Made by a program: the position numbers and the translations under genes. This document shows positions 19,795 through 63,050 of a stretch of DNA of 64,000 bases, piece after piece. Within the stretch, counting starts at the first letter, position 1; every line of letters begins with the position of its first letter. The notes below the pieces were generated by a model. The model did not search any database. It was not told the DNA's origin and was given only the letters and a program-made list of their open reading frames with translations. The stretch comes from Branchiostoma floridae (taxonomy: Eukaryota; Chordata; Leptocardii; Amphioxiformes; Branchiostomatidae), in assembly GCF_000003815.2 (NCBI RefSeq), contig NC_049996.1, positions 18,136,018-18,200,017 of the forward strand, read 5' to 3'.

Positions 19795-20003
19795 ACATTT
19801 ACAGATGTGTTACGTGTGTAAGATGACAGGTGTGACGTGAGAAAGACGACTGGTGTGTTACGTAAGACAACAGGTGTTTTACATCAGACGACAGGTGTGT
19901 TACATCAGACGACAGGTGTGTTACATCAGACGACAGGTGTGTTACATCAGACGACAGGTGTGTTACAGGCTTTACAGGTGCGTTACATCAGACAATAGGT
20001 GTG
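19795..20003. repeat. Minisatellite abutting the GOSR2 stop codon
   Basis: About eight units of roughly 21-25 bp (acatcagacgacaggtgtgt). The unit phrase gtgttacgtgag matches the sequence over the GOSR2 stop codon (TAA as tta at 20004-20006), so the array looks grown out of the gene's coding end. Confidence 0.75.
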
Positions 20004-20922
20004 TTACGTGAGGTACTGAAAGGCCAGGTACATGATGACACCTGTGACTATCATCCCGCCAAACAGGATGAATCTGTCGTAGAAGGTTCTCTTCTCGATG
20101 AGCCGCATGACTGTGTTGGACATTCCCAGCATGTTGGCGACATCCAGCATCTTCTTGTGAGCTCCCTGGGGTGGTGGGGGGCGAGAGTTCGTTAGTGATG
20201 GTGGGGGACGAGAGTTCGTTAGTGATACTTAGCTCCCTGAGATGGTGGGGGACGAGAGTTCGTTAGTGATACTTAGCTCCCTGAGATGGTGGGGGACGAG
20301 AGTTCGTTAGTGATACTTAGCTTTAATCAGTCCCAAACAGCAGCCTGCTTTCTGTTGTGGGTACATTTATGCACAACATTCTGTACATTACAAGAGAAAT
20401 CAGCAAAAGGCTTAGAAGTGAAGTTGTAAACATTTCAACATAATTTTCCAATGAAGATACAATCCTCCATAGTAACTGCTGGCTCAATCTTGTCGTGGTT
20501 GGCAAGCAAAATGATTAAGGGGTTACTATGAAGGAATGAACCCAGGATAGAAAGTTTAATTTCAAACAAAACTTTCCAAACAATGGAAAAAAAATTGTTT
20601 TCCTTTCACTTCAATCACAGGCAAAATACTTGTGTACAATTCAGATATAGATTTTAAGTGCAGTCTAGTGGGGTGTATTCACACACAGAAGGTGAAGATT
20701 ATTTAAATTATGTATATTCATCATTATTGTTGTTGTTGTTATGGTGTCCTATGTCCATGACCTCAGTGCCTGTTCAGACTGTACCTTGAGTGTGCTCCTC
20801 TGTCCCTGCAGGCTGGCCATGATAGAACTGCCTGATCCGATGAGGTCGTCGACCCCCCTGTGTGCATTGTGTAGGGAGGAGTTGTGCTGGAGGGCGTGGT
20901 CTATCATAATGGACGTGTCCTC
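20004..20922 (-). CDS. GOSR2: Golgi SNARE membrin, last two exons
   Basis: Minus-strand exons 20922-20785 (46 codons) and 20165-20004 (53 codons plus TAA) are both phase 0 with good splice sites. They encode [28 protein letters not shown], then [37 protein letters not shown] and the membrane anchor [16 protein letters not shown]. This matches the C-terminal half of human GOSR2 almost residue by residue (QRLTLKGTQKKILDIANML, then [15 protein letters not shown] and VVQYLT at the very end). The SNARE motif has Gln at its centre ([10 protein letters not shown]), as expected of a Qb-SNARE, and ends in a C-terminal membrane anchor. Membrin acts in ER-to-Golgi and intra-Golgi vesicle fusion. The N-terminal exons (about 110 residues in human) are not visible between 20922 and the divergent P450 gene at 21766. 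The gap at 21223-21322 may hide them. Both visible acceptors are multiplied in minisatellites. Confidence 0.93.
20155..20325. repeat. Tandem repeat of the GOSR2 last-exon acceptor
   Basis: Three to four units of about 45-50 bp (gctccctgagatggtgggg gacgagagttcgttagtgat). Read on the minus strand, each full unit repeats the CAG/GGAGCT junction that begins the last GOSR2 exon, so decoy 3' splice sites precede the real one at 20165. Confidence 0.8.
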
Positions 20923-21130
20923 CTGTGGGACAGTAAAAACAGTGGTCTATCATAATGGACGTGTCCTCCTGTGGGACAGTAAAAACAGTGGTCTATCATA
21001 ATGGACGTGTCTTCCTGTGGGACAGTAAAAACAGTGGTCTATCATAATGGACGTGTCCTTCTGTGGGACAGTAAAAACAGTGGTCTATCATAATGGACGT
21101 GTCCTCCTGTGGTGGATCAGTAAAAACAGT
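20898..21130. repeat. Tandem repeat of a GOSR2 acceptor plus exon start
   Basis: Five units of exactly 46 bp, starting ggtctatcataatggacgtg at 20898, 20944, 20990, 21036 and 21082. On the minus strand each unit carries the acceptor CCCACAG and the first coding bases of exon 20922-20785 (GAGGACACGTCCATTATG, residues EDTSIM). The copy at 20898 is the real exon. The last unit is altered (gtggtggatcag). Confidence 0.9.
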
Positions 21131-21322
21131 GGTAAACAGCCTTTCAATGCTGCCCTTTTGAAATCGGAAAACCATAATCAACTTCAAAACTTCAAGGGCA
21201 CACTTAGCCTGGATAGCATCCTNNNNNNNNNNNNNNNNNNNNNNNNNNNNNNNNNNNNNNNNNNNNNNNNNNNNNNNNNNNNNNNNNNNNNNNNNNNNNN
21301 NNNNNNNNNNNNNNNNNNNNNN

Positions 21323-43015: not shown

Positions 43016-45460
43016 CTTGGAGAGTACTGTATTACGCCTGTGTCGGTAGAGACACTGTACTACCCGTGTTTGGAGGAGACACCATATTACACCTGTGTTT
43101 GATATACATTTACTTGATACGACTGTTGTTGACATAAGCTTTAGAATTTAGTCTGTAGATCATTAGAGGCAAATCATTGCTGTTACACAATTGTTACATT
43201 ATGATGTTGTTCCATCTAACTATACTTTATTGTTTTGGTGTAGTTTAACCACCATTAGTTTGTTTACTCCAGAAGTTTAGTTTGCCGTAGGGGGAAGAGT
43301 GTAAAAAGCCAAAATGGCATACACCCCCTACGACAGTAGAATAGCCCGTTGACCCAGAGATAAGAGAGGAACCAGTTGAACTGGTAGACATGGCTACATG
43401 GCTTTCTAGAATATAGTGGCTTGAGTCTTCCTTATTGGACAAACCTTGGGGTGAGGGACAGGGGAGGACAAACGTATATTCACAGTTTATAAGATCAGTT
43501 ATGATATCTCTGCTAATGACTTATCTTAAGGCTGGCTGTAAGAAGAATTTCTGTGTGTTACAGCACATTAAACCAACATGAAATGGGCCTTCTGATTGGT
43601 CTACATCGCCTAGCTAAATGACAATCAGACCATAGTAAAGGTTGTGTGTGTGTGTGTTAAGGCTAGCCAGGCTGTGTAAGACAGCTCAAATGGCAAACCA
43701 TTGAAAAACAATAACATTAACCAAGGACAATAACATTACAGACACCTTATCATTGCTTCTAACAGGTCACTTGTTGACAAATATCTCAACAGGACTAATG
43801 ACAATATAGAATAACTTATCATAAAGGATACTGCCAGGCTGTGAGCTGCCTATGCCTATGTGAATAAGGTTCTACTATAACGTATAATATTAACTACAGG
43901 CAGTGGTCTAGCCAAGCTGATACAATGATTGCTTTTTCAATCAATTTTAACATAATTTAGCTTGCACATTTAACAATAATATACGAAATTACATATTGAA
44001 TTAGATCTACATAATACAGAGATTATAATATATTAGCAAATAAAGATATGCAAATCATTAACTCCATTCTTCTTCTTTTAAAAGACCACCATTAAAGTAA
44101 CCTTTCTGATTGACCAACACTCTGTATCATACTCTGTATTTCACCTCCGTGATTGAAAGCATTTTCCTGTCATTCCAAGGTGCCAAATATGAAAAACAAA
44201 AGCCGGCAAGGTTGGTGTTCAACATTTTACCATATGGTGGATCATTTAGTTTTTACTTTTGAAACATCCAAAACTAGCATAAATCAAAGTTATGATAAAA
44301 TTTACGAAAATTCCTTTTGACCTTGAAATTCAAGATGGCGGAAGGTTACCGGTAGTGGTCTACTGTTTCCTACACAGAACTGCACTGAGCCAATGGAATT
44401 GCCACCATCAGAGCCTGTCATAGCCACATTGCACAGACTACTATGTACATGTACAGTGTTAGTTCTACTGTTTCTACAACAGTATCGTAGCAGGACAAAT
44501 TTTAGATAAATTTAAAACAAAAGACCTACATGGACTAGCCTGTGTCCATTATCAATAAGAGAACTAACATCTAAACTGTTACTGTTACCAGCCAGGTTTC
44601 CTAAATTGGAACCTTGGTTCATGTATCGCCAACAGAAACCAAACAGAATTAATTTTGCATTTTTGGTCAATCCTTGGAAAAGAGAACTGTACTACATTTT
44701 TTTAATACATATAGTATACTCTAAATGTAATACATTTACTTGATACAAAGTTATTTCTACTAAATGGTACCAAATATATCAGGTACAAAACTACAAAAGT
44801 AACAGTATTATTCTGCTTCTCTTGCGTTTGACAATACTGGTGATTTTCCCAAATCACACATGGGACTTGCACATAGCCGAACACCTCAAATTTTGACAAA
44901 TTCACTGATCTATTAGCTGATTTCAGCATATACCAATCTCCATTGCCTCTAAAACAATGAACTGTTTTTTTTTCATCATACAACATAAAATACATTAAAG
45001 TAATACACATTTCTCACGTTTACCGTTCTATACAATACTGAAGTTTAGTTGACTACTTCACTTGTCTTTTGATGCATGTCTTGAACTCCAATCTGTCATG
45101 ATGGACAGGAACTTGGGAAGAACCTGATGTCAACTCTCCGAGGATGAACTAAACTGTACTGGACGTTCTCTCCTTCACATAAGCTCTAGACCTAAAGCAC
45201 TTGACTGTGATTCACTCGTGTCTTCATCATTTTCTGCATCTTTGATTCTTCTCTGTCACTGTATCAAGCATTGGGCTTGGTGATTCAATTCTTTCTGCAA
45301 AGAGAATTTGCAGCTCACAGAACACGTTCAGATGTTCTTCTTCCAACACTGTGAAAAGCTGACGAAATGCCTACACTTTCCAATCAACTCCAACCTATGG
45401 AAAAAGAAACAACAGAGTAATGAGCAATGACATGAAAAAAAAAAAAATGTCACATTGATG
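43016..45460. other. Intergenic, no gene seen
   Basis: A short (gt)n run lies at about 43645-43658. aagatggcgg at 44333-44342 is a YY1-like site. tagggggaag..gccgta/taccccctacg near 43285-43335 can form a hairpin. The zinc-finger 3' UTR probably extends into 45.4-45.9 kb; AATAAA on the minus strand falls at about 45690. Confidence 0.4.
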
Positions 45461-45469
45461 TAGACCTAT

Positions 45470-45889
45470 ACTGCAGCCTAATGTGGAAGCCTGGGATAGC
45501 CATGGGGGTTTGTGAGAAACTGTATGCAGGTGCTATGCATGTGTGGCATGTATTAAACTAGTAAATACTCACCTGGTTTAATACACGGATTTTAAACCTA
45601 ATACTGCTACCTATTGTGGAAGCTGGGGGTCCTCATGGGGGTTTGTGAGAATCCCCTTGGTTGCTGACAGCAGGCATGAAGAATGTGTTTATTTATTTGA
45701 TGGCTAATTTCTTTATTGTGTGAAGCACTCACCTGGTGTAAAGCATGGATATGGACCTAATACTGCTGCCTATTGTGGAAGCCAAGGGTCCCCGTGGGGG
45801 TTTGTAAGAAGCCTTCCAGGTTACTGAGTGCAAGCATTACGCATGTGTAAGATATAGGTACACACCTGGTATGAAATTGGGGAATAAAC
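45470..45889. repeat. Partial copies of the zinc-finger gene's last exon
   Basis: Three diverged copies (about 45475-45540, 45590-45680, 45755-45840) of the exon's final part, seen as attgtggaagc.gggggtcc and catgggggtttgtgagaa. They continue the 3' end of the coding exon at 45890. Confidence 0.8.
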
Positions 45890-48800
45890 CTAATACTGCT
45901 GCCTATTGTGGAAGCCGGGGGTCCCCATGGGGGTTTGAGAGAACCCGCCTGGGTTGCTGACGGCAGGCATGAAGCCCATGAGCATGGGGATGGAGTACTG
46001 GTCGATGGTGCTGTACTGCTGCATGGGGTTCCCTGTCTGGTCGTGTCCCAGCGCTTGGCTGGTCGTCGGGATGTGCACCGTCTCCATGTTGGTCAGGGTC
46101 TGGGGGGACACAAACAGGGATGAGTTACAGGAAATACAAGGAAAAGTATCACAATCTACTTTAGTTTCCTGCCCTACATATTTTTGTATCAACAAAGGAC
46201 AGAGTACAAAAAATGTATTTGCAAAATGTTCCCATACTTTTGGACAGGCATAACAAATATTGACCCAAAACACAACTGCATATCTAAAAAAATGTATAAG
46301 TTTGATAACTGACCACTGAATTCCATGTACTACTTTGTGCTAGAACTTAATTCTACTTTTCACTGTTTTTTTTTTTCCACACACTCAAACACACACACAT
46401 TCACATACACAACGCCTGGTTGAATGGTCAATGTACAATTGTAGCTACAGCCGAGGTATGTAACACCAAAGAGGAGGGAAGTGACCCCTGAGACCTGTAA
46501 GGCTGCCTGGTCCATGTACCTAAATCTGGGCCACACAACTGAGATATGTAACACCTATGGGAAGAAGATGGCAAGAAGGGAAGAGAGAGTTTAGTTAGAG
46601 AGTGTTATAGGTACACATGTAGGTCTCCTCGCACCTGTAATGCTGGCTGGTCCATGTCCTGCCCCCTGTCCACAGAACTAACACGAGGACCAGGTTTGGG
46701 GAGGCTGCTTCCCTGGATATGTGACAACTAAGGGAGGAGGGAGGGGGTTATGGTAGGGAGTAGGGGTGATGGTAGGGAGGAGGGGTTATGGTAGAGACTC
46801 CCCTTACCTGTAATGCTGGCTGGTCCATCTCCTGCCCCCTGTCCACAGAGCTAACATGAGGACCAGGTTTGGGGAGGCTGCGCCCCTGGATCTGTGACAA
46901 CTAAGGGAAGGGGGAGGGGGTTATGGTAGTGGGGGGGGGGGAAGGGTTATGGTAGGGAGGGGGTTGTTGTAAGGACACAAAGTACCAGTACCTGTAATGC
47001 TGGCTGGTCCATCTCCTGTCCCCTGTCCACAGAGCTGACACGAGGACCAGGTTTGGGCAGGCTGCGCCCCTGGATCTGTGAGAGCTGCACGTTCCGGTCC
47101 ATCGTCATGCTCATGGTGTGGGACGGCAGCACATACTCCTGACGACTTGTCATCTGGGGAGAGAAAGGAAAATCCTAAATAAAACATATTCCTTTGAGCC
47201 ACGTTTGGGATGGCATTCTTGCTGCTGCAGCACCACCTACATGTACATCGGTTATAAGTAGCAGCAGAATCAGATTCAGTCATTCTAATCCTGATGATGG
47301 TGTCTGATAGACATCAAAATGTTGGAAGGGAGTACAATTCTGATTGTGTATTGAAGAACCTTACCATATGCAAACATATTCCTGTTTAGATATATCAAAG
47401 AATACAGAAAGTTTTCTTTCCACAATTCCTTGAACTCTTCAACAGTGAAAGGATAACTTCAAAATTCTTTTACCTGAGTGAATCTGTGTCTATAATGTAC
47501 CATTTCTTTTTAAAAGTATTGCTATTTTTTAATACAGGAAAGTTGCCTACATAATGAGATTGGACAAAACAATGCTTGTCAATCAAAGCAACTTTCAAAA
47601 CTAAAAAAAACAAACAAAACAAAACAAAACAGAACTACAGTTTACCATCAAATTGACAAAAATCCATGCTTGATTCCACTGATTTGTCTACTGTAAATTC
47701 TTGTACGTATTCTAATGCTTTAGGGTAAAGCTTTGAAAAAGCCTTTCACTATTTCCTGACCTGAAGCTGCTCCTGACTTGTCATCTGCAGCGGTGCCCGT
47801 TCTCGCTCCACGTAGCCCTGGTCCCGCATGACCTCCGTACGCAGCGCCTCGTTACGGAGCACGCTCAGGTCGATGCTCTGTGGCGCGGCCATCTGCAGGA
47901 GTTCCCGCCGGGGCGTAACGCTGTCCGGGCTCGCAGTGAAGGCTGAGCTCTCAACCTGGCATAACAATGTGGGCATCGAAACAGTTCTTAGAGATACACA
48001 ATACAAAAATATATCTGGCTGTGAAAGCTATCTGGTCTGGATGTGAAGGCAGAGCTCTCCACCTAGAGAACGTGAGCAATGAAATGGGATTAGCGGTGGG
48101 TACCGGTACAGAAAATTCGACTCCAGGTACGATCCAGGTCCAGAGGATCAGGTCCAGGTCCAGAAATAAGCAGGTGAGACTTTTACTAGTTGTGTAAAAG
48201 AAATTCCATATCCTAATAGACGTTCTACCAACCAGGCTATTTTTCAGATATTTGTATGACTTATTGATCAATAAAAGAGACAACAAACAAACAACCAGGC
48301 TGTCTGCACAAAGCATTGATCAAAATTGACCCTTGTCCTGCTGATCCCGTATATATATACAGGATGGACATATTGAACCCTTGTCATGCTGAGCTGTATT
48401 TTTAATAGTATGGGTTTTTTTCTCATGTAAAACTTGCATGCCACTAGCACTGCAAAGCCCATTGAATGGGGAGTAAATCTGCAGCAGCAGCACAGAACAG
48501 GTCAAGTTTCACTGATCTGATGAAGAAATCAGCTTTGGGAGGTTAAATTGGCCGAAAAATTGCCAGCAGGACAAAAATGTCTGTGAACAACTTCACAATA
48601 CGATAAAATGTAGTAGTATGTAGGAGTATGAAATTTCTGTGAACAACTTCACAATATGATAAAATGTAGTAGTATGTAGGAGTATGAAATTTCTGTGAAC
48701 AACTTCACAATATATATGATAAAATGTAGTGGTATGTAGGAGCATGAAGCCACCCAAACCCACCTGTATGAGTTCCTGTTGTCCCTGACTGGCTGAGACC

Positions 48801-51800
48801 GCTTCCTTCACCTCCTGCCGCGCTGCCTTGTCCTTGTTCGACACGCGACTGCGCCGGCCGATGGAAACCCGACTCCGCATGCTCGACACCGTGGACAGCG
48901 TCGCTAGGGCCTCGCCCTCCGGTTCCAGGATCGTCGCCATGGTAACAGGACATCCGTCGTGTCCGGGGGTCTGGATGATGCCGCGGAGATGCTTCTCAAC
49001 ATGACGGTCGAGGCGCTGCTTCTTGTCGATGGAGTAGGAGCAGAGGTGGCACTTGTAGCGCTTGTTCTGTAGGGTGCCCTCACCCATGTCTGGCTGCTGT
49101 AAGGGTTTATAACAGTGTATTTACTACAGTAGGAGCAGAGGTGGCACTTGTAGCGCTTGTTCTGCAGGGTGCCCTCACCCGTGTCTGGCTGCTGTAAGGG
49201 TTTATAACAGTGTATTTACAACAGTAGGAGCAGAGGTGGCACTTGTAGCGCTTGTTCTGCAGGGTGCCCTCACCCGTGTCTGGCTGCTGTAAGGGTTTAT
49301 AACAGTGTATTTACAACAGTAGGAGCAGAGGTGGCACTTGTAGCGCTTGTTCTGCAGGGTTCCTTCACCCGTGTCTGGCTGCTGTAAGGGTTTATAACAG
49401 TGTATTTACTACAGTAGGAGCAGAGGTGGCACTTATAGCACTTGTTCTGTAGGGTGCCCTCACCCGTGTCTAGCTGCTGTAAGGGTTTATAACAGTGTAT
49501 TTACTACAGGTAACAGTAGGAGCAGAGGTGGCACTTATAGCGCTTGTTCTGTAGGGTGCCCTCACCCGTGTCTGGCTGCTGTAAGGGTTTATAACAGTGT
49601 ATTTACTACAGTACAGCTGCTGTAAGGGTTTATAACAGTGTATTTACTACAGTAAGGGTTTATAACAGTGTATTTACTACAGTAAGGGTTTATAACAGTG
49701 TATTTACTACAGTAGGAGCAGAGGTGGCACTTATAGCACTTGTTCTGTAGGGTGCCCTCACCAGTGTCTGGCTGCTGTAAGGGTTTATAACAGTGTATTT
49801 ACTACAGTAAGGGTTTATAACAGTGTATTTACTACAGGTAACAGTAGGAGCAGAGGTGGCACTTGTAGCGCTTGTTCTGCAGGGTGTCCTCACCCATGTC
49901 TGGCTGCTGTAAGGGTTTATAACAGTGTATTTACTACAGTAGGAGCAGAGGTGGCACTTGTAGCGCTTGTTCTGTAGGGTTCCCTCACCCGTGTCTGGCT
50001 GCTGTAAGGGTTTATAACAGTGTATTTACTACAGTACAGCTGCTGTAAGGGTTTATAACAGTGTATTTACAACAGTAGGAGCAGAGGTGGCACTTATAGC
50101 ACTTGTTCTGTAGGGTGCCCTCACCAGTGTCTGGCTGCTGTAAGGGTTTATAACAGTGTATTTACTACAGTAAGGGTTTATAACAGTGTATTTACTACAG
50201 TAAGGGTTTATAACAGTGTATTTACTACAGTAGGAGCAGAGGTGGCACTTATAGCACTTGTTCTGTAGGGTGCCCTCACCAGTGTCTGGCTGCTGTAAGG
50301 GTTTATAACAGTGTATTTACTACAGTAAGAGTTTATAACAGTGTATTTACTACAGTAGGAGCAGAGGTGGCACTGGTAGCGCTTGTTCTGCAGGGTGCCC
50401 TCACCCGTGTCAGGCTGCTGTAAGGGTTTACAGCAGTGTATTTACTACAGTAGGAGCAGAGGTGGCACTTGTAGCGCTTGTTCTGCAGGGTGCCCTCACC
50501 CGTGTCTGGCTGCTGTAAGGGTTTATAACAGTGTATTTACTACAGTAGGAGCAGAGGTGGCACTTGTAGCGCTTGTTCTGTAGGGTGCCCTCACCCGTGT
50601 CAGGCTGCTGTAAGGGTTTATAACAGTGTATTTACTACAGTAGGAGCAGAGGTGGCACTTGTAGCGCTTGTTCTGTAGGGTGCCCTCACCCGTGTCTGGC
50701 TGCTGTAAGGGTTTATAACAGTGTATTTACTACAGTACAGCTGCTGTAAGGGTTTATAACAGTGTATTTACAACAGTAGGAGCAGAGGTGGCACTTATAG
50801 CACTTGTTCTGTAGGGTGCCCTCACCCGTGTCTGGCTGCTGTAAGGGTTTATAACAGTGTGATGTTGGTACAGTTTTACAGAAGGTAATTTGTTATAAGG
50901 TTACTGTAGTTAACAGTTAAGTAGGAGCAGAGGTGGCACTTGTAGCGCTTGTTCTGCAGGGTGCCCTCACCCGTGTCTGGCTGCTGTAAGGGTTTATAAC
51001 AGTGTATTTACTACAATAAGAGCAGAGGTGGCACTTGTAGCGCTTGTTCTGCAGGGTGCCCTCACCTGTGTCTGGCTGCTGCATTGATAAGATAATTATT
51101 GTATTTAATACAGTTTTACAGTATTTACTTTTGGTCTGGACTTTTCTGAAAGGTTTGATACATATACAACATATATACAGTTGTATGACTATGAGGTTCA
51201 TCAATAGGTCATTGTACAGTAGGTATGTTAACAACAAGATCAATGCATGCTGTGTGCTATATGATATCAGTATGCAATGTAGTTTAGAGTGTAGAGCAGA
51301 TGTGTCTTCACTGAGTTGTATACAGTCACCTCTCCTTTCCTCCCTCCCTCATTCCTTCATTCCTAATGTCTAGAACAACACTAACCTAAACAGTATCTGC
51401 CCCAGCCTGTTACACCTCAGTCCCTGCACTGTTAGTGACCCATGGATGTTTTTTCTGCATGTGTGTCTGGAAGTTGCCCTTCTATGAGGCTATCATTCCT
51501 CTCTCTCTCTCTTTCTCTCACTCTTTAATTCCTTATATCTCTACTACTACTAAGACTAACCTGTACAGTGTCAGCCGCTGCCTGTTCCCCTTCAGTAGCC
51601 CCACTGTTGGTGACCCAGGGATATTTTTTCTGCATTTGTGCCTGGAAGTTTCATTTCTGCATGGTTACCCATCCTCTCTCTCTCTCTCTTACTCTTTCAT
51701 TCTTTATGTCTATAACAACTAACCTGTACAGGATCAGCGGCTGCCTGTTCCCCTTCTGTTGCTGCACTGTTAGTGACCCAGGGATGTTTTTTCTGCATGT

Positions 51801-54800
51801 GAGCCTGGAAGTTTCCCTTCTGTGTGGCGGTGTACAGACAGTACTGGCACTTGAAGGGCCTCTCTCCGGTATGCTGCAGCATGTGCTGCTGCAGGCATCG
51901 CTTGAAGGGGGTGGAGTAGCTGCAGTGCTCACACTTAAACGGCTTGTCCTCCTGGAAAAATAATTAAAAATAAATGGTATTAAAAATACCACAAATCAAA
52001 TCTAACCATGTTCTAATGTTTGCTCTGTACATATCGAAATACATGTAACTTAGTTCCTTGCACAATCAGGAACTTATTGGAATGTACAAGGAACTATGTT
52101 ATATGCACAATGTCATACACATACAATACATGTACATGTATTTCCCAAATGTCATAGACATCTGAGGTAAACAAACCTTTATGGGAAATCATATTACACT
52201 CTGACAGCAGCATTCAAAATAAATGAGGTACCATTGCAAACATTGCAAGATATGTCAGCAACTTGCACAATAACAACTACTAGTCTGCATGATGGCATAA
52301 ACATACTGTAAATGCAGAAACTTTTGCGGTGGTTTAATGTTCACGGCTTTTATGGTGGCCGCTTCACCGCGAACTTAAAACCATCGCAAACATTCTTCTA
52401 TGGCAGTACGAGACTACAGTGCATGGTGCTACCACGAACTTAAAACCACCGCAAAAAGTCCTTTTTCCCACTACCGCAAAATTAAATCCCAGCGAACTTA
52501 AATTCATTTACAGTACTTAAAACTGCTTCATAATCATATAAACAAACTTATGTTAACCTTATGAGTCTTAATGTTCAGATAAAGACAGCCCTGTGATGTA
52601 CTTCACTATATGATTTTACTTCAATAAACAACATTACCTTATGAGTCTTCATGTGCAGATACAGCCCTGTAGGGTACTTGAAGCAGGAGTCGCACAGCTG
52701 ACACTGGTAGGGTTTGTCGGAGCGGTGTTTGCGGGAGTGCGAGCGCAGACTGCTCTTGGTGGAACAGCGGAAGCCGCACTGCTCGCACATGTAGGGCTTC
52801 TCCTTGGTGTGTGTGCGCACGTGGATCTTCAGCTTGTCCGAACGCTCGCAGGCGTAACTACAGTATGGACAGGTGAACGGCTTCTCACCTGTGGAAGGGA
52901 CAGAACAATGGTTAAGTCAGGTGAACCTCACCTGTGGAAGAGACAGAACAAAAGGTTACTGCTCGCACATGTACAGTTTCTCCTTGGTGTGCGTGCGCAC
53001 ATGGATCTTCAGCTTGTCTGAACGCTCGCAGGCGTAGCTGCAGTACGGACAGGTGAACGGCTTCTCACCTGTGGCAGGGACAGAACAATGGTTAAGTCAG
53101 GTGAACCTCACCTGTGGAAGGAACAGAGGAAAAGTTTACTGCTTGCACATGTAGGGTTTCTCCTTGGTGTGTGTGCGCACATGGATCTTCAGCTTGTCTG
53201 AACGCTCACACGCGTAGCTACAGTATGGACAGGTGAACGGCTTCTCACCTGGGGAAAGAACAGAGAAAAGGTTACTACTCGCACATGTAAGGTTTCTCCT
53301 TGGTGTGGGTGCGCACATGGATCTTCAGCTTGTCCGAGCGCTTGCAGGCGTAGCTGCAGTATGGACAGGTGAATGGCTTCTCACCTGGCAAAAGGAACAG
53401 AACAAAAGGTTACGTCGGGTGAACCTCACCTGTGGAAGGGACAGAACAAAAGGTTACTGTTCGCACATGTACAGTTTCTCCTTGGTGTGGGTGCGCACAT
53501 GGATCTTCAGCTTGTCGGAACGCTCGCACACGTAACTACAGACTACAGCACAGGTGAATGGTGTTTCACCTGGAGAAAGGACAAAACAATTGTTACGACA
53601 GGTGAACCTCAACTGTGGAAGAGACAGAAGAAAAGGTTACTGCTCACACATGTAGGGTTTCTCCTTGGTGTGGGTGCGCACATGGATCTTCAGCTTGTCC
53701 GACCGCTCGCACGCATAGCTACAGTACGGACAGGTGAATGGCTTCTCACCTGTGAAAGGGACAGAACAATGGTTAAGTCAGGTGAACCTCACCTGTGGAA
53801 GGGACAGAAGAAAAGGTTACTGCTCGCACATGTAGGGTTTCTCCTTGGTGTGGGTGTGCACATGGATCTTCAGCTTGTCCGACCGCTCGCACGCGTAGAT
53901 ACAGTACGGACAGGTGAACGGCTTCTCACCTGGGGAAAGAACAGAACAAAAGGTTACATCAGGTGAACCTCACCTGAGGAAGGGACAGAAGAAAAGGTTA
54001 CTGTTCACACATGTACAGTTTCTCCTTGGTGTGTGTGCGCACATGGATCTTCAGCTTGTCCGACCGCTCGCACGCGTAGATACAGTACGGACAGGTGGAA
54101 GGCTTCTCACCTGTGTAAGGAACAGAGGAAAAGGTTACTACTCGCACATGTACACTTCTCCTTGGTGTGCGTGCGCACATGGATCTTCAGCTTGTCCGAA
54201 CGCTCGCAGGCATAGCTGCAGTATGGACAGGTGAAAGGCTTCTCACCTGTGAAAGGAACAGAGCAAGGGTTAAGTCGGTATCCTGAAATCTGTGTGACAC
54301 ATCTGATGTAACCTCAGCTGGAAGAAAGATTGCTGCGTCAGACAATTTTCTGACTGTCACAGCCAATATGTCTTAGCCAGAGGCAAACCGTTTCTGACCT
54401 GGGGAAGGAACAAGACAGAAGATTAAGTCTTTAAAGACAATTCAATGTCCTCAACTGGATATTAAGATTTGCAGATTACTTCCAGATATTTCAAACGACA
54501 TCCAGCACTCTTAATCTTTTACAGCATCACCAAAATCAACTGGAAGAACCTGGGCTAGGCATACATGTGCTAGTATTGAATTGTTATGTACTAGGTTCAG
54601 ACTTTTAAAACCCCAGTGAGAGAATGATACTCCACCAAACTTGACCAAACAGATTTGTAACCGTCAATTAGACCATTCTTTTGAGTATTGCCCATTCATA
54701 GGTTTTCATGAACAATTAGGTCCAGGTTCAGGTCCAGAAAGGGACCTGATCCTCTGGACCTGGACCATACTTGTACCTAGGTTTCCCACCTCTAGTTCAA

Positions 54801-57800
54801 ACCAACCTGTGTGTGACATCTGATGGATCTTGAGCTGGTTGGCCCACTTGCAGGTATAAGGCAGTGTATGACAGCTAAGAAAGACTCTTGCAGTGACAAG
54901 AAACATTTCTAACATTTCTCTATTTCTAAACAATACTGGGGAAGCCCCCTCAACCCAGTAATCATGATGTCTTAGCCTTTTCCTTGAAGATGCCCCTCAC
55001 CTGTGTGAGACATCTGATGGATCTTGAGCTGGTTGGCCCACTTGCAGGTATAAGGCAGTGTATGACAGCTAAGAAAGAATCTTCCAGTGACAAGAAACAT
55101 TTCTAACATTTCTCTATTTCTATAAATTACTGGGCAAAGTCCACCCAGTAATTATGATGTCTTAGACTTTTTCTTGAAGAAGCCCCTCACCTGTGTGCGA
55201 CATCTGATGGATCTTGAGCTGGTTGGCCCACTTGCAGGTATAAGGCAGTGTATGACAGCTAAGAAAGACTCTTGCAGTGACAAGAAACATTTCTAACATT
55301 TCTCTATTTCTATAAATTACTGGGCAAAGTCCACCCAGTAATTATGATGTCTTAGACTTTTTCTTGAAGATGCCCCTTACTGTACCTGTGTGAGACATCT
55401 GATGGATCTTGAGCTGGTTGGCCCACTTGCAGGTATAAGGCAGTGTATGACAGCTAAGAAAGACTCTTGCAGTGACAAGAAACGTTTCTAACATTTCTCT
55501 ATTTCTATAAATTACTGGGCAAAGTCCACCCAGTAGTTATGATGTCTTAGACTTTTTCTTGAAGAAGCCCCTCACCTGTGTGCGACATCTGATGGATCTT
55601 GAGCTGGTTGGCCCACTTGCAGGTGTAGCCACACTCGGAGCAATGGACGTGAGGCAGTGTATGACAGCTAAGAAAATGTTTCTAACATTTCTCTATTTCT
55701 ATATATTACTGGGGAAAGCCCTGTTAACCCAGTAATCATGATGCCTTAGACTTTTTCTTGAAGATGCCCCTCACCTGTGTGTGACATCTGATGGATCTTG
55801 AGCTGGTTGGCCCACTTGCAGGTGTATCCGCACTCGGAGCACAGGTAGCGCCGCTCATCCTCATGCACTCGCTGGTGCACATGCAGCTGGCTCACCTCCT
55901 TAGCTGAGTAGTTGCACTTGTCACATCTGAAGTTACATGACATCAACATTTTATAATCATGATAATGATATTATAAGACTTTCTTAGTCCTATATGACTT
56001 TCTTCGTTCAGAATTGGTGAAAAAATTCCAATTTGAAACCCCTGTCCGTAGCCTAACACCCTGTTTTTTTAATACAACAGCCTTAGACTAATGAAACTTA
56101 CTTTTGGTTACAACACACAAAAGGACTTGTCACACCGCAACCAACAGTAGATATTGATTGCGAGGGACGTGTCTGTGTGCTTCGATGTAAACATGTTGTA
56201 AAATCATAATTACCAAATGAATCTCAATAATTGCTGAGAGTTTTTTCTGAGATTTTTCATTCAATAAACTTGTACAAAAACTTCCCATATAATCATCCTG
56301 ACTTTTTACAATGCAACATCATTATGGAATTTTAACATTCAATCAATGGAATTGCGCTAGTTATGAGTTTAAAGATCAAGCCTTAAGCAGGAATTAACCC
56401 ATAGCAGGTACAGGTACATACTTGTAAGAAGTTGCAGTGGAGTGCACCCTGCGCATGTGCCTGGCCAGGAGACAGCGTTTGGTCTGTGAGACTTAAGATT
56501 GAGCCTAAGACTTAAACCATAGCAGGTATGTACTTGTAAAGAGTTTTGTCTAGGAAACTAAAGATTGAGCCTAACACTTAAACCACAGCAGTTACGTACT
56601 TGTAAGGAGTTGCCGTGGAGTGCACCCTGCGCATGTGCCTGGCCAGGAGACAGCGTTTGGTCTGGGAGACTTAAGATGGAGCCTAAGACTTAAACCATAG
56701 CAGGTATGTACTTGTAAAGAGTTTTGTCTAGGAAACTAAAGATTGAGCCTAACACTTAAACCACAGCAGGTACGTACTTGTAAGGAGTTGCTGTGGAGTG
56801 CACCCTGCGCATGTGCCTGGCCAGGAGACAGCGTTTGGTCTGGGAGACTTAAGATTGAATCTAAGACCTAAACCACAGCAGGTACGTACTTGTAAGGAGT
56901 TGCAGTGGAGTGTACCCTGCGCATGTGCCTGGCCAGAAGACAGCGTTTGGTCTGGGAGACTTAAGATTGAATCTAAGACCTAAACCACAGCAGGTACGTA
57001 CTTGTAAGGAGTTGCAGTGGAGTGTACCCTGCGCATGTGCCTGGCCAGGAGACAACGTTTGGTCTGAGAGAAGTCGCACAGCTGACACTGGAACACCTTC
57101 TCAGGTTTGGGCTGGCGATGCTCCGCGTTCTGGTGCTTCTTCAGGAGCAGCTGGTGGCCGCAGGTGAAGTCACACTGGTCACAACTGGAGGACAACATAA
57201 TCATGAAAATTGCCTTATCAAAAAAGGACATACAAGTAAGTCCATTGTAATACTGTATTGAAAAAGCACAATCTACTGTATCATTATCATAATCCAAAAA
57301 TATCATAATCGTGAATAAAACTGTAGCTTGATAGGTGACCTTTCCCCTTTGACCAGCCCTAACCCCTGACCTCCCCTGACCTTACCTGATGTCGTCCTCG
57401 TCAGCATGAAGGTCTTAGATGTATATCTGTAGGTAGTTCTCTCTTGACCTTCCCTAACCCATGACCTCTCCTAACCCCTGACCCCCTAACCCATGACCTC
57501 CCGACCCTACCTGACCTCCCCTGACCCTACCTAACCTTACCTGATGTCATCCCCATCAGCGTGCAGGTCTAAGATGTGTTTCTGCAGGTAGTTCTCTCCT
57601 GACCTTCCCTAACCCCTGACCCCTGACCTTCCCTAACCCCTGACCTCCCTAACCCGACCTCCCCTGACCTTACCTGATGTCGTCCCCATCAGCGTGTAGG
57701 TCTAAGATGTGTTTCTGCAGGTAGTTCTCGCTGGATGTGGAGAAGGGACACCTGTCGCACTTGTGGGTCTTGTGCACCTTCTTATGTTCCTTCAGCTGGT

Positions 57801-60800
57801 CGTAGGTGTCAAACTCCTCACTGCACTTCAGGCACACCTGGAACAATGTAGCATGCAGTGGTGCTGTGGTTAGCAAACTTTCATCAAGATCAGAGGGGTG
57901 ATCTCTGGCTGAGTGGGTAGAGTGTTCGCCTTGCATTAGGTAGGTCGTAAGTTCAATCTCCGGCCAAGTCATACCAAAGACTTTAAAAATGGTACATGCT
58001 GTTTTCTCTGGTTAGCAATCAGCACTAATGAGGAAGAGCATGGAAGTTAAACACACATCACTACCAGCGGACCAGCCCCCTGCTGTAGTGACTTGCACAT
58101 GTGTGGCCCAAGGGCTACAGAAATGGAGATGGGCGCCAACCCTAAGCATCTGCACAGATGTACGGGCAACTTTAACTTTTTTTCAACAGGGGTGGGAGTT
58201 CAAATTCTAGAACACACTTTGACATCACAGGTACAAGTTACCATTCATTTACTTGTATTTTCTTCTAGAATGAGGGTAGAGTGTTTGCCTTGAATTCCCA
58301 AAGACTGTAAAAATGGTACACACTACTTTTCCTGCTTAGCACCCAGCGCTTATGAGAAGGAGTGTGAGAATTAAACACACTGCATTGCAAGTGGACTAGC
58401 CCTCTGCAGTCACCAGTGTGGCCCGAGGGCTATAGAGAGGGAGATGGTACTGGCCCTTTGTAAGGGACAGTGTCCACATAGAATAGGCACTATCGTGAAA
58501 AATTATGTACCTTAGTATTGTGTTTGTGTTGTGTTCCCAGTGCCAGTGTAGCAACAGTTGTAAGAAATTATACAAACCTTTGCCTTGTGTTCATCCGTGT
58601 TGTGTTTCCAGAGTCCATAGCGACTGTTGTAAGAAACGATACATACCTTAGCCTTATGTTCATCTGTGTTGTGTTTCCAGAGTCCATAGCGACTGTTGTA
58701 AGAAACGATACATACCTTAGCCTTATGTTCATCTGTGTTGTGTTTCCAGAGTCCATAGCGACTGTTGTAAGAAACGATACATACCTTAGCCTTATGTTCA
58801 TCTGTGTTGTGTTTCCAGAGTCCATAGCGACTGTTGTAAGAAACGATACATACCTTAGCCTTATGTTCATCTGTGTTGTGTTTCCAGAGTCCATAGCGAC
58901 TGTTGTAAGAAACGATACATACCTTAGCCTTATGTTCATCTGTGTTGTGTTTCCAGAGTCCATAGCGACTGTTGTAAGAAACGATACATACCTTAGCCTT
59001 ATGTTCATCTGTGTTGTGTTTCCAGAGTCCATAGCGACTGTTGTAAGAAACGATACATACCTTAGCCTTATGTTCATCTGTGTTGTGTTTCCAGAGTCCA
59101 TAGCGACTGTTGTAAGAAACGATACATACCTTAGCCTTATGTTCATCCGTGTTGTGTTTCCAGAGCCCGTAGCGACTGTTGGCCACGAAGTTGCAGCCCT
59201 CGTTCGGACACTTGAGGTCCTCTGGATCGCGCTTGCCGCGGTGCATGGTCATGTGGCGGTTCAGGTGCGCCTGTGAGTTGAACCGCCCGTCGCACGTGGG
59301 GCAGATGAACTCAAGGTCACCCGAGTGCATGTTCTGGCAAGGCAAAAAACAGTCAGGTGTCTAGATTATTCATAACATACATGTATATTCATTTCTGCTC
59401 TCTTTTACTGGGGTACTCTTTCAGTGACTGGGCACTATGTTTTTCAGCAAGGCCCTCGGTACATGCAGACAACGTTATTATTATATACATGGCCAAATGA
59501 GATTTGTACATTAAACAATGCAATAGCTATCCACAACTGTTGTTGTTATCAAGGTGGCCAGGTAGTAATAAGGTTTAAGGTTAAGAATAAGGTTTGGAGA
59601 TCAAACCACTCTACTGCACAGTGTGTTGAAACACAGAAAAGTAGTATAATGTACATTTGTATATGTTGGCTGCATGGTTTAAAAATTGTAAAAATGTACT
59701 GATCTTTCCCTACTTTTTCCTTTATTCGATCATATCAAAAATCATAAAAACCAAAGCTGAACTGGAAGAGCAACATGAAAACACAATCTAAAGGGGGACG
59801 TCTGTACCTTGGACACACAGTTCACCATCGGATCCAGAAATTTGTAACAGGGGGCATCTTCACTCCTAGGGCTTCTGCACACATTACTAATTCTGAACAG
59901 GGAGGGCATATCCGGTTCGTCTCCCCCTAAATCCGCGCATGCAGTTTACGGGATTGAATGTCAGGCTCAAATTGTCCTTCCAGCCCTTTGGGTTCATCTT
60001 CACTGCTTCCTCAATTCTTAGTTCTAAGTGAGTATGAACTAAGATATAAATTAGTGTAGCCTCATGGGGTTGTGTGGCATAACTGTAGAGTGGTTGACCC
60101 AGAACCCAGAACCCAGAGTCATTGAGTTTGAATCTTGTCATACTATCAATTGCATGCCCTGACTGAAGAAATTCCCTCAACACGACTTTCCTCACTCCAC
60201 CCAGGTGTAAAGACGGGTACCTGAGTTTAGTTGGGGAGGTAAAAGGCAATGTGCTCCACCTTCCAATACCATGCATTAGACACAATAGATAACAACCCAC
60301 TGCCTGTATGGCCTTTAAAAAATGCCATGAGACTACCTTTACCTTGTACTAGACCTTACCTTGATATGCCTGTTGAGCGAGGCCTGGTCGTAGCAGCCGT
60401 ACTCACACAGGTCACAGGTGTGTGTGGGCTGGCCGGAGTGGCGCAGCTCATGCTGCTGAAGATGGTGCTGTGTGGTGAAGGCCTGGCTGCACTCTCCACA
60501 TTTGAACTGGCGAGACTCGTCGTGGACGGCCATGTGTTCTGTCAGACGATACTTCTGGGCTGTAACAGGAGGGAAAAAGTTATATATGTGCATTGTAACA
60601 AAGGAGCTACGGCCGTGGCACGTTGGTACACCCGATCCCTCGATCTCGGAAGTTAAGCAACGTGCGGTCCAGACAGTACTTGGAGGGGAGACCACCAAGG
60701 AAGACTGGATGCTGTAGCAGGGTCATACCAAAGACTCTTAAAAATGGTACATACTCCTTTCTCTGCAAAGAGGAAGAGTATGGAAGCTAAACACACTTCA

Positions 60801-63050
60801 CTACCGGTGGACAAGCCCCCTGCTGTAGTGACTCATGTATGTGTGACCCCAGGGCTTAAAAACGGAGATGGGTGCCGGGCCTACGCATCACAATGTGATG
60901 CATGGCAACTTTAGCTTTCGCTGTAACAATACTTTGTAGATACAATTGGCATCATGATAAATAATAGTACTTTCTTTGACTTGAAGGGAGTTAGAATCCT
61001 GTGTTACCGAGTGACATAGGCTTGCATGTTTCAGCAATGCTACATGATCGGAAAAACAAAGAGTGATTGTCACTAAGTCTAGCACTGTCAAGTGCCCAAG
61101 AGGACACCGCAGAAGAACTTGGGAGGCTACTAAGGGTTTACAGAAGCCAACTGGGGGCCCTGGGATGAAAATAGAACATCCAAGAGAAAGGAATGTCTAC
61201 AGCCACCATATATCAACAATTCCAGAAATAAAAATAAATACTGAAATGGAAATTCTTGCCCTTGAATGATTAATTGATTGATTGTTATTCTCAATTCATG
61301 AAAAGACAGTGCTCCAGCTTGAATATTACCATTTTATGCTAATTTTTCAAACTTCTCAAAGGGAAGCTGTGATTGGCTCCCTAGATAATTTATGCAGCAA
61401 CGAAAGACATATGGAACACATTTGGCAATTAATTACCAATCAAGTGACCAATCAACTTAAATATTTCGCCAATTGCATCTTGAAAATGATACACATTTTT
61501 CCACTTACTCACTTGTCCAGATCATCTTCCTTTTGTACACAACAACTTAATATTATATACTAAGTACATGTTTTGACCCACAAACAAAATGTGCAACTTG
61601 CAAACCCACTACCCGTGTGGTGCAATGTATCCTGTGTACTGTTAACATTCATCATACCCAGTAGGGTTTCTCACCAGAGTGTAATTCACTCATTTCTGCA
61701 CAGCCATGTCTTAAGTGACAAAAGGGTGCACTCTCTACAGTTGTGTGGTTTCTCATGACTTGGATTCCACAATGCTGCGATTCACAATTTAAAGCAAATA
61801 GTAACCTAAGACTAAGTAACCTCTATGTGTGAAGGAACATCATGTCACAACTTCTGCTTTTCTTTGACGAATATGAATTAATTGTAGGCTAATCTTGTTT
61901 GATTCATAGCTATTTTTGCCTTCCATTGCCAGAGTAATAGTGGGATCTCTAAATACAATGGATTTCTTGAATACTTTTAGACTTCCAGTCCAAAAAAACG
62001 GTCAGGACATTCGTTTTTTTGGACTCAGTTCTTGGATGTTGTACCGGTAAAAACTGGTCCAGCCGAACCGGTATCCAGCCCTACTATCATCATCATCATT
62101 GTTCGGCTTCAATGCAGGTGACTGTTAACCCTTGTCCTGCTGAGCCAGTTTACATATGGGATGGACATATTCAACCCTTGTCATGCTGTGCTGTATTCTT
62201 ATGGGTTTGGGGTATTTCTCATGTAAAACTTGCATGCCACTGCAAAGCCCATCGATTGGGGAGCAAATCTGCAGCAGCAGCACAGAACAGGTCACGTTTT
62301 ACTGATCTGGTGAAGAAATCAGCTCTGGGAGGTTGAATAGGGCAAAAAATCACCAGCAGGACAAGGGTTTCCTGTAATTCCTTTTGCTACTGGCAAAGTG
62401 AGCAATTTGTGAGTTGGCTATATATGTACCAGAGGTTTTGTCCATTCTGTCCAAATGAGATTGAAGATGAACGTCACTTTGTAATGGATTGTTCTCTATA
62501 TAATGACAAACGCACAGAGCTGTTCACATTACTTTCCGCTTGCTCTAAAGAATTTGCTACTCTTTGTACGATAGATAAACTGAACTACATTCTTGGAGGC
62601 GATAATCCTCACTGTGTACAAGTAGGCAAATATATCCAAGAATGTCTATACCGTAGAAGCAATAGTGTAAATGACATGCTAGTCCCTATGTGCTGATTTA
62701 TTCATACCTATAGATATTCATATATGCGTGTTTAGTTGTACTGTAAGTAGTTGTTATACATGTAGATCTTACGAAAGTCGCTGTGCTTTTGTCGTGTCAA
62801 TAAAGATTTGTATCATTGTAACTATACATACATGTATAGCAGATGTAAAAGGAAAGAGAGTGTGGAATAAAATTGAGTAATGAGCTGGTCCCTCCCCACT
62901 GTGAGTCTGAAGCACCCCTGTAACCCACCTGCCTGGAAGTCGCACTGCTCACATTTGTAGGGTTTCTCCCCAGTGTGGGTCCTGAGATGGGTCTGCAGGG
63001 CCCTGTCCTGGTAACACGTGAAGTCACACTGGCTGCAGTTCAGGATCTTC
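45890..63050 (-). CDS. C2H2 zinc-finger protein with 18 fingers (12 exons, 5' end outside)
   Basis: Minus-strand exons 63050-62929, 60559-60360, 59333-59130, 57837-57674, 57184-57002, 55926-55775, 52888-52638, 51951-51724, 49096-48764, 47955-47761, 47153-46992 and 46099-45890 join in frame to about 800 residues ending NRQQY and TAG. They carry 18 C2H2 fingers, from [21 protein letters not shown] to [21 protein letters not shown]. One finger has a wider Cys spacing (CPNEGCNF). Several fingers are split by introns, and the joints restore C-x2-C-x12-H spacing ([25 protein letters not shown]), which supports the model. After the fingers come about 280 residues without domains, with an Arg/Lys-rich patch ([19 protein letters not shown]), then a Met/Gln/Pro-rich tail. 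It is probably a nuclear DNA-binding factor. Finger number and tandem style recall ZFAT-like proteins, but the tail does not match, so no symbol is given. Confidence 0.9.
46495..46900. repeat. Partial copies of exon 47153-46992 with its donor
   Basis: Three copies (ends near 46495, 46635 and 46807) of the exon's 3' part ([10 protein letters not shown]) plus donor, as cacctgtaatgctggctggt followed by ccatctcctgccccctgtcc. Period about 175 bp for the two full ones. Short gtagggaggagggg runs lie between. Confidence 0.85.
48090..48180. mobile_element. Fragment of an element with ggtccaggtcc repeats, copy 1
   Basis: Begins gcggtgggtaccggtac and holds ccaggtccagaggatcaggt. The same text is found inverted at 54718-54800. 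Two dispersed copies of a small family, boundaries unclear. Confidence 0.5.
48329..48577. mobile_element. MITE, cccttgtcctgctg family, copy 1
   Basis: acccttgtcctgctgatccc at the left and gccagcaggacaaaaatg at the right. The body tctgcagcagcagcacagaa and atctgatgaagaaatcagct are shared with 62126-62370. Confidence 0.75.
48583..48763. repeat. ~67-bp tandem repeat next to a donor
   Basis: Three units of tttctgtgaacaacttcaca then gatgtagtagtatgtaggag, directly after the donor of exon 49096-48764. The unit does not include coding sequence, unlike the other arrays. Confidence 0.75.
49097..51075. repeat. 17-copy array of acceptor plus exon start (~95-bp unit)
   Basis: On the minus strand each unit reads acaccgttataaacccttacag-type intron end, then the exon start of 49096-48764 (CAGCCAGACACGGGTGAGGG to TGCCACCTCTGCTCCTAC), then drops into intron again. 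I count 17 copies of the finger start, at about 49140, 49230, 49326, 49424, 49520, 49722, 49851, 49944, 50082, 50236, 50362, 50455, 50550, 50645, 50782, 50930 and 51020. Some are spaced wider by an extra copy of the intron part alone. Each holds a 3' splice site and half a finger ([12 protein letters not shown]). Confidence 0.92.
51380..51723. repeat. Partial copies of exon 51951-51724 with its donor
   Basis: Two diverged copies (about 51385-51490 and 51560-51660) of the exon's end (HPWVTN...DPVQ) plus donor, seen as cactgttggtgacccaggga and ttttttctgcatttgtgcct, separated by (tctc)n runs. Confidence 0.85.
52304..52515. mobile_element. MITE, tactgtaaatgca family
   Basis: 212 bp from tactgtaaatgcagaaactt to aattcatttacagta, with inner repeats gcggtggtttaa / cttaaaaccaccgc. 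No coding frame. Confidence 0.75.
52889..54250. repeat. Eight partial copies of exon 52888-52638 with its acceptor
   Basis: Each unit (about 140-185 bp) holds, on the minus strand, an acceptor then [20 protein letters not shown] and [15 protein letters not shown], that is one whole finger and linker, before returning to intron sequence (cagaacaaaaggttac on plus). Copies vary at the codon level ([19 protein letters not shown] in some), and most keep the frame open. Confidence 0.9.
54700..54800. mobile_element. Fragment of an element with ggtccaggtcc repeats, copy 2
   Basis: gacctgatcctctggacctg and cctaggtttcccacctctag form the inverted counterpart of 48090-48180. It lies inside or beside the first 55-kb array unit. 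Confidence 0.5.
54805..55774. repeat. Five partial copies of exon 55926-55775 with its donor
   Basis: Units of about 190 bp, starting near 54810, 55000, 55190, 55380 and 55575. Each carries, on the minus strand, [16 protein letters not shown] and the donor GTGAGG, followed by intron text (tagctgtcatacactgcc). The copy nearest the exon also keeps a worn CSECGYTCK start. Confidence 0.9.
56400..57001. repeat. Partial copies of exon 57184-57002 with its donor
   Basis: Four copies (near 56425, 56600, 56770 and 56885) of [20 protein letters not shown] plus the donor GTACGT, as aaggagttgcagtggagtgc and accctgcgcatgtgcctggc, spaced 110-180 bp, plus two short scraps (cttgtaaagagttttgtcta). Confidence 0.9.
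57380..57673. repeat. Partial copies of exon 57837-57674 with its donor
   Basis: Two copies (57387-57445, 57541-57600) of [18 protein letters not shown] plus donor, separated by (cctaacccctgacct)n runs. Confidence 0.85.
57890..58185 (+). mobile_element. tRNA-headed SINE (shared-body family)
   Basis: Head with an A-box-like tggctgagtgggtagagtgt and a B-box-like ggtcgtaagttcaatctccg, then the body gtcataccaaagac, ggaagttaaacacacatcac, agccccctgctgtagtgact and atgggcgccaaccctaagca. Sits in a zinc-finger gene intron, just upstream of exon 57837-57674 on its strand. Confidence 0.8.
58265..58490 (+). mobile_element. SINE of the shared-body family, worn head
   Basis: gggtagagtgtttgccttga is the remnant of the tRNA-like head, joined early to the body (ttcccaaagactgtaaaaat, agtggactagccctctgcag, cagtgtggcccgagggctat). 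The B box is lost. Confidence 0.7.
58505..59129. repeat. 69-bp array of exon end plus donor, open in frame
   Basis: Eight nearly identical 69-bp units and one or two diverged ones copy the 3' end of exon 59333-59130 ([17 protein letters not shown]) and its donor (AAG/GTATGTATCG), each followed by 18 intron bases read as VCIVSY. Donors recur every 69 bp from 59130 down to about 58647. Because 69 is divisible by three and no stop occurs, the frame stays open through all units. Other frames (192 and 252 codons) over the same bases are by-products. Confidence 0.93.
60060..60275 (+). mobile_element. tRNA-type SINE remnant
   Basis: gtagagtggttgaccc and gagtttgaatcttgtcatac resemble worn A and B boxes. 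The tail cctgagtttagttggggagg and ccaccttccaataccatg is shared with 22560-22690 and 26180-26340. Confidence 0.5.
60606..60925 (+). mobile_element. 5S-rRNA-headed SINE (shared-body family)
   Basis: Bases 60606-60719 match 5S rRNA nearly end to end: gctacggccgtggcacgttg, cccgatccctcgatctcgga, agttaagcaacgtgcggtcc, gacagtacttggaggggaga and actggatgctgtagc. The internal promoter boxes (agttaagcaacg and ggaggggagaccaccaagg) are kept. At 60720 it joins the body ggtcataccaaagactctta, ccggtggacaagccccctgc and cagggcttaaaaacggagat that follows a tRNA-like head in other copies. It is a retroposon, not a working 5S gene. Confidence 0.85.
61000..62100. other. Zinc-finger gene intron, nothing else recognised
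   Basis: Several short frames without motifs. tgattaattgattgattg at about 61267 is a short tandem. ggtaaaaactggtccagccg near 62045 looks like a scrap of the element at 48090. Confidence 0.35.
62126..62370. mobile_element. MITE, cccttgtcctgctg family, copy 2
   Basis: 245 bp with clean terminal inverted repeats aacccttgtcctgctg and cagcaggacaagggttt. The inside repeats acccttgtcatgctgtgctg near the left end. Homologous to 48329-48577. Confidence 0.85.
62400..62815 (+). mobile_element. LINE 3' end (C-terminal Cys/His region)
   Basis: A 95-codon frame ending at 62696 reads [20 protein letters not shown] then [20 protein letters not shown]. The C-P-F-C ... E-x-E-x-H-F ... C pattern is the C-terminal zinc-like region of non-LTR reverse-transcriptase proteins. 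A 3' UTR follows to about 62815 (caataaagatttgtatcatt). 5'-truncated, hence inactive. It lies in a zinc-finger gene intron. Confidence 0.7.

Follow-up and report, generated by a model that had tools for sequence, protein, structure and literature searches.

Tandem arrays spanning exon ends and splice sites of an amphioxus zinc-finger gene, and an excess of such arrays at predicted exon edges in the surrounding region

The stretch of DNA analysed here (the window) covers 64,000 nucleotides of the amphioxus Branchiostoma floridae (G000:C18:18136018-18200017) and sits on an 18.55-Mb contig, some 0.35 Mb short of its end. It holds, on the minus strand, a C2H2 zinc-finger gene in which several exon ends are repeated in tandem together with their splice sites. 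The twelve predicted coding exons of this gene (A to L), when joined in phase, give a single frame of 800 amino acids in which the final codon of L is the sole stop, and the Pfam matches of the product are zinc fingers. A further predicted exon at 64012-64245, just beyond the window, probably belongs to the gene as well. A structure-sequence search with the C-terminal part of the protein returned only four matches, at E 0.33 or worse. The assembly consulted comprises 513,431,437 bases in 431 contigs, of which about 300 kb was fetched, and hence no genome-wide rate is claimed. The gene and its exons, each placed by the joined open frame, are as follows.

45890..63050, minus strand: C2H2 zinc-finger gene, 12 predicted coding exons A-L (open frame and zinc-finger Pfam matches)
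63050-62929, minus strand: exon A
60559-60360, minus strand: exon B
59333-59130, minus strand: exon C
57837-57674, minus strand: exon D
57184-57002, minus strand: exon E
55926-55775, minus strand: exon F
52888-52638, minus strand: exon G
51951-51724, minus strand: exon H
49096-48764, minus strand: exon I
47955-47761, minus strand: exon J
47153-46992, minus strand: exon K
46099-45890, minus strand: exon L

Arrays were sought by self-comparison, using 120-b probes centred on each of the 24 exon ends and accepting a copy only where its match extended 8 b or more from the edge in both directions. Copies lay over the edge at 11/24 exon ends, with clear arrays at nine of them (eight splice edges and the coding end), and in the same comparison 11 of the 24 ends had no copy at all. 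A first-pass annotation had placed arrays at nearly every exon edge, which overstates their number; the nine coordinates it gave are nonetheless exact exon ends in our gene model, and the arrays do take in the splice site, multiplying donors at some exons and acceptors at others with units that vary between arrays. Clear arrays touch 6 of the 11 introns, plus the coding end, or 8/11 if degenerate copies at the G donor and J acceptor are counted. Arrays and degenerate copies are listed below; extra copies are those that cover the edge, and a slash within a motif marks the splice junction.

58510..59181, minus strand: exon C donor array with a 69-b unit and 9 extra copies
57336..57735, minus strand: exon D donor array with steps of 133 and 155 b and 2 extra copies
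56370..57071, minus strand: exon E donor array with steps of 112 and 66 b and 6 extra copies
54805..55841, minus strand: exon F donor array with steps of 190-199 b and 4 extra copies over the edge; a further copy stops 2 b beyond the edge
52761..54301, minus strand: exon G acceptor array with 12 extra copies; the units measure about 136-185 b, and several contain two AG/GTGAG sites
51325..51828, minus strand: exon H donor array with steps of 163 and 175 b and 2 extra copies
49033..51114, minus strand: exon I acceptor array with 17 extra copies of a 95-b unit and its variants
46543..47086, minus strand: exon K donor array with steps of 184 and 173 b and 2 extra copies
45453..45975, minus strand: exon L end array with 2 extra copies, covering both the stop codon and the donor-like site that follows it after 23 b
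48020..48090, minus strand: degenerate copy of the exon J acceptor, 71%, approximate limits
52556..52603, minus strand: degenerate copy of the donor end of exon G that stops 2 b beyond the donor, approximate limits

Full units of one array reach nearly the same distance into the exon, from 52 b in C to 111-128 b in G, and always fall short of the full exon length. Copies of the same array differ from one another by about 25-30% at most. The end of exon L at 45890, which the first-pass annotation counted with the spliced edges, is a true exon end with an array, but it is a TAG stop codon with no shown donor; the donor-like site 23 b further on reads CCAG/GTGTGT, and CCAG/GTGAGT in two of the three copies. 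Three other ends gave isolated matches: the J acceptor has a single weak one 103 b away, likely a degenerate copy, the H acceptor a single weak one (67%, 1.4 kb away) that probably reflects similarity between fingers, and the I donor matches only within its intron (an intronic array at 48575-48748). In the outermost copy of the F array (54806), similarity to the other copies ends 2 b past the splice site, suggesting that the exon part was copied without the neighbouring intron. Through the 69-b units of the C-donor array (58512-59360) the frame of exon C stays open, giving a frame of 282 amino acids, so that the extra donors there could add 23 residues each.

The extra copies of an exon end, which we call decoys, look like functional exon ends at two levels. 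The splice dinucleotide is intact in 57/57 decoys of the zinc-finger gene, where neighbouring intron pairs predict 46.5 (in an earlier realignment the figure was 51/52, one being lost to a gap). In other genes it is kept in 70/78 decoys against 55.7 expected, or in 59/60 against 45.7 when six doubtful edges with antisense, wrong-side, weak or isolated copies are dropped (big 142772, 144020, 126750, 126573 and 113976, and L033 2189). The exon parts of the decoys, moreover, differ from the true exons mostly at synonymous positions: pooled over nine arrays, the proportions of synonymous (pS) and nonsynonymous (pN) differences are 0.283 and 0.040, a pN/pS of 0.14, a value also obtained in a separate count (bootstrap over arrays 0.09-0.19), and between decoys they are 0.289 and 0.067, a ratio of 0.23. 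In the pooled figures identical C decoys are merged into one; excluded are the J array, both half-unit E copies, those C and L copies that have degenerated most and, in each G unit, the second site, which is non-coding. By our reasoning, neutral copies left alone should give about 0.5 between true exon and decoy and about 1 between decoys. For the intron parts of the units, mean identity ranges between 0.37 in K and 0.94 in I; on average, though not array by array, this divergence is about the size of the synonymous divergence. Four-gamete conflicts, scored with the true exon among the units, occur in 90/153 column pairs of the G array and in 6/21 of the I array; the units of these two arrays thus appear to be mosaics, although recurrent mutation could add to the conflicts.

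Their sequence, and their agreement with published cases, identify the arrays as what are known in amphioxus as mirages. In the accessible part of PMC3087553 these are minisatellite-like duplications of exon-intron boundaries, described for Adh3 and for the globin genes BflGb6, with a unit of 150-160 b on the acceptor side, and BflGb9, with one of 157 b on the donor side; the Adh3 data and reverse-transcription PCR (RT-PCR) of the globins suggest regular splicing, and a role of mirages in intron gain is proposed. As far as consulted, PMC3902484 adds PGBD5, whose copy number differs between two sequences, and cites TnC. The amphioxus Adh report to which the first-pass annotation referred is thereby borne out at second hand, in the parts of these two papers available. 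As a control we fetched nine globin exons and recovered a 158-b acceptor array of 3.7 copies and a 157-b donor duplication, matching the published mirages; 2/16 edges of the globin loci lie in arrays. A third globin locus (L046 709-931) carries a degenerate 117-b donor duplication (76%) that is absent from the globin cases in the part of PMC3087553 consulted. Like published mirages, the arrays of the zinc-finger gene are tandem minisatellite-like copies across an exon-intron boundary, on the donor or acceptor side, with AG and GT signals kept and imperfect units of tens to about 200 b. What differs is that nine exon ends of a single gene are involved, that an excess at edges is measured over a region and that the decoys are coding-like; length instability and regular splicing, on the other hand, are features of the published mirages, and the zinc-finger gene is known here from the sequence of one assembly. 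Ordinary intronic minisatellites likewise consist of tandem units with uneven copy divergence and are commoner in GC-rich DNA, but the present arrays contain an exon end and its splice site. No genome-wide survey of mirages was recognisable from titles and abstract openings in the literature searched, which covers few subscription journals.

For a regional measure, exons were predicted with a finder built on codon use and splice consensus, with assumed splice weights and trained partly on the zinc-finger gene. It was exact on 11 internal exons of that gene (all in the training set), also called ten of its decoys as exons (8 in the G array, 2 in the I array) and, at a threshold of 25, yielded 62 exons in 210 kb against 6 on the reversed sequence. 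The G-array decoy exons were removed by hand, and three exons (L and two of a SNARE gene described below) were entered by hand. The region tested, window coordinates 19500-170000 (window plus right flank), then held 78 predicted exons with 156 edges, 26 of them in arrays. Since extra copies fall in introns by construction, repeat coverage of positions was not used as a test. Instead, one unit per array was placed at random on a map without the extra copies, never inside or over a whole exon; unit size was the largest period, to a maximum of 250 b, and two arrays inside exons were dropped, leaving 63. An excess of arrays at splice sites, which had been proposed as a check, is found over these 150 kb of predicted edges: 26/63 arrays lie on an edge versus 9.0 expected (standard deviation 2.6), a value reached in 0/4000 draws. 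A first version with the smallest period as the unit had given 4.6 expected for 65 arrays. When placement was limited to 1500 or 800 b around exons the expectation rose to 10.8 and 12.4, and with GC matching to 11.5, off-edge arrays being two to three times commoner where DNA exceeds 45% GC. Tolerance and GC therefore account for part of the excess, and about a twofold excess remains.

Within the zinc-finger gene itself, 10/11 arrays are on an edge versus 2.3 expected, one of the arrays lying at 64211-64480, just outside the window. Because this gene was chosen for its arrays, the region-wide test weighs more, and the excess holds outside it as well, with 16/52 arrays on an edge versus 6.8 expected (2/4000 draws). 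Among arrays at least 95% alike the figures are 9/17 versus 2.2, and 5/13 versus 1.3 outside the gene (9/4000 draws; 44 and 31/4000 with narrower regions). The expected numbers depend on the exon finder, and these tests are subject to the incompleteness of the predicted exons and to the selection of the region because of the zinc-finger gene. Moreover, three of the 26 edge arrays (35271, 142771 and 144019) are probably no mirages, in view of a 65% match, a wrong-side copy and a lost dinucleotide, which leaves 23 by subtraction; the placement test was run on 26. Heterogeneity between genes within the region was not significant (P 0.09), and the zinc-finger gene compared post hoc with the rest of the region (10/26 versus 16/130 edges) gave a Fisher value of 0.003.

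The arrays are widespread but patchy among genes and are not confined to one of them. On the minus strand of the window a SNARE gene, which we tentatively read as GOSR2-like, shows a 46-b x 5 array at one acceptor (20896-21133), a 44-b array (20172-20322) whose units contain its next acceptor, and a 21-b array running from its stop codon (about 20007; 19844-20007). Intron-side copies were also found in an adjacent zinc-finger paralogue and in neighbour genes that we presume, from their translations, to be BECN1-like, guanylate-kinase-like and LRR genes. Of eight myosin loci chosen by position and read, seven have 2/106 edges in arrays; the eighth (C10 myosin gene; L035 153-3253 and L038, G000:C10:21155000-21168500) has 9/26 as counted, including one array of 50 b x 22 where its P-loop exon has its acceptor and another, of 53 b x 22, on the donor side of an exon. 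The post hoc comparison of 9/26 with 2/106 gives P 5e-6 on these as-counted edges, which include one edge in duplicate and a doubtful abutting pair; 8/24 or 6/22 would be fairer. The first-pass annotation had suggested a mechanism local to the gene, perhaps linked to its short finger sequence; since SNARE, globin, myosin and other neighbour genes show arrays, a mechanism private to this gene or to fingers finds no support. Finger sequence as the cause is rejected in view of the arrays in the SNARE, globin and myosin genes.

The paralogue lies 10-19 kb beyond the right end of the window (74110-83058 in window numbering; loci L020-L021) and has arrays at four edges. Its exons ending SGEKPY and HQLTHT match E and F by eye, and arrays are present at these two donors in either gene. 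The paralogue also has two introns that are missing from the zinc-finger gene, each with an array at one end. This pattern hints at predisposed edges or at intron turnover, and four edges prove neither. PMC3087553, in the part available, cites a proposal by Rogers of intron gain through tandem duplication of AG/GT. Several edges here are AG/GT and the two paralogue-only introns fit that picture, but intron ancestry was compared between two paralogues only and no intron is shown to have originated so. Recursive splicing uses ratchet sites, in which an acceptor is directly followed by a donor. Copies combining the acceptor and donor consensus as AG/GTGAG were seen at window 52888-54246 and in the C10 myosin gene (L035 1358-2406): 12/14 G-array sites read AG/GTGAG, and the myosin acceptor array has 20 copies of CAG/GTGAG. 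The likeness is one of sequence and confined to these two acceptor arrays, I-array decoys reading AG/CAG instead. Elsewhere in the window, a satellite-like array of 162-b units occupies its left part (1488-5984), and the left flank has repeats of comparable spacing at its far left end.

Several explanations can be weighed against these observations. Decoy exon ends might themselves be used, as alternative donors, acceptors or small exons, and be under selection at the protein level, which would fit the low pN/pS, the retained dinucleotides, the G- and I-array decoys called as exons and the open C array. However, 45/59 unit steps are not divisible by three, and the C array supplies 8 of the other 14, so that a decoy included through extension of its exon would usually be read out of frame; stops are present in several decoys, those of D, G and H running into stops and the distal copies of the D and H arrays carrying them. 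Because of these off-frame steps and stops, use of decoys as protein seems unlikely in general, and the regular splicing suggested by the globin RT-PCR and Adh3 data in the accessible part of PMC3087553 also speaks against it; overall we give this explanation little credence. An assembly artefact, with collapsed or duplicated haplotypes mis-joined as tandem copies, might be suspected from the runs of N in the window and from the differing PGBD5 copy numbers (PMC3902484, as far as consulted). It is highly improbable, given that copies within arrays differ by as much as about 25-30%, that the two published globin mirages recur in the same assembly, that no run of N falls within the zinc-finger gene and that exon K matches one locus only in the genome, although exact copy numbers are uncertain.

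The excess at edges admits two further accounts. Splicing or transcription, for example through R-loops or repair at exon-intron borders, could aim mutation at exon edges, consistent with the excess over the GC-matched expectation, with that among arrays at least 95% alike, overall and outside the zinc-finger gene, and with the patchiness seen between the C10 myosin gene and the other myosin loci. Yet arrays also span or start at stop codons, which are no splice sites (exon L, though with its donor-like site nearby, and the SNARE gene), and heterogeneity between genes of the region is not significant; such aiming seems to us rather unlikely. Conversely, there may be no mutational preference at all, the excess reflecting only tolerance, GC and the advantage that arrays tied to conserved exon sequence have in surviving and in being detected. 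The GC-rich nature of exon edges together with the GC dependence of off-edge arrays, the raised expectation within 800 b of exons and the exons missed by the finder all lean that way, but the excess persists under every null that was run and is present in young arrays, where survival should count least, which makes this account doubtful.

We favour, with moderate confidence, an explanation in which minisatellite arrays exchange sequence with the functional exon end, bad versions are purged by selection and GC-rich edges raise the rate at which arrays start. A tandem duplication across an exon edge would be nearly harmless because the exon-proximal copy can still yield normal messenger RNA, and the open frame suggests that the exon-proximal site is indeed the one used. 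The array would then expand and contract by unequal exchange or conversion, as other minisatellites do, and, the functional exon end being itself one array unit, sequence could pass between it and the decoys, while versions with a broken splice site or altered codons would be purged upon reaching the functional position. GC-rich exon edges would raise the starting rate, and something beyond GC and tolerance may add the remaining, about twofold, excess. In favour of this explanation count the excess at edges, the intact splice dinucleotides and low pN/pS of the decoys, the off-frame steps, the four-gamete conflicts in the G and I arrays, the stops in distal D and H copies and the recurrence of two published globin mirages.

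Several observations weigh against this explanation. At the divergence seen here recurrent mutation can mimic exchange, and four-gamete conflict was absent from the E and F arrays (0/3 and 0/10 pairs). Nonsynonymous changes in the G array show no simple rise towards its distal end. The pN/pS in other genes is less extreme, at 0.25 (0.13-0.44) over 14 arrays with the six doubtful edges dropped and 0.34 over all 20, and low ratios are favoured in any case since over-decayed decoys escape alignment. Finally, the intron part of the K array diverges from the edge on, which simple contiguous duplication explains poorly.

More tentatively, the arrays may act as a sequence reservoir, exon ends and decoys evolving in concert under the coding constraint of the copy that is used, and AG/GTGAG decoys may also be ratchet points for recursive splicing. 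The kind of array is already known; what is new relative to the known cases is that the decoys keep their splice dinucleotides and are coding-like, and that a regional excess is measured. Where mirages had been known as scattered cases, an excess at exon edges has now been measured across a region. The arrays also provide a natural series of competing, near-identical splice sites, up to 18 for one exon, on which the question of how the spliceosome chooses could be asked. The codon-level cleanness of the intronic copies would be a testable sign of sequence trade between array and exon, and bears on intron gain and on how minisatellites may shape genes.

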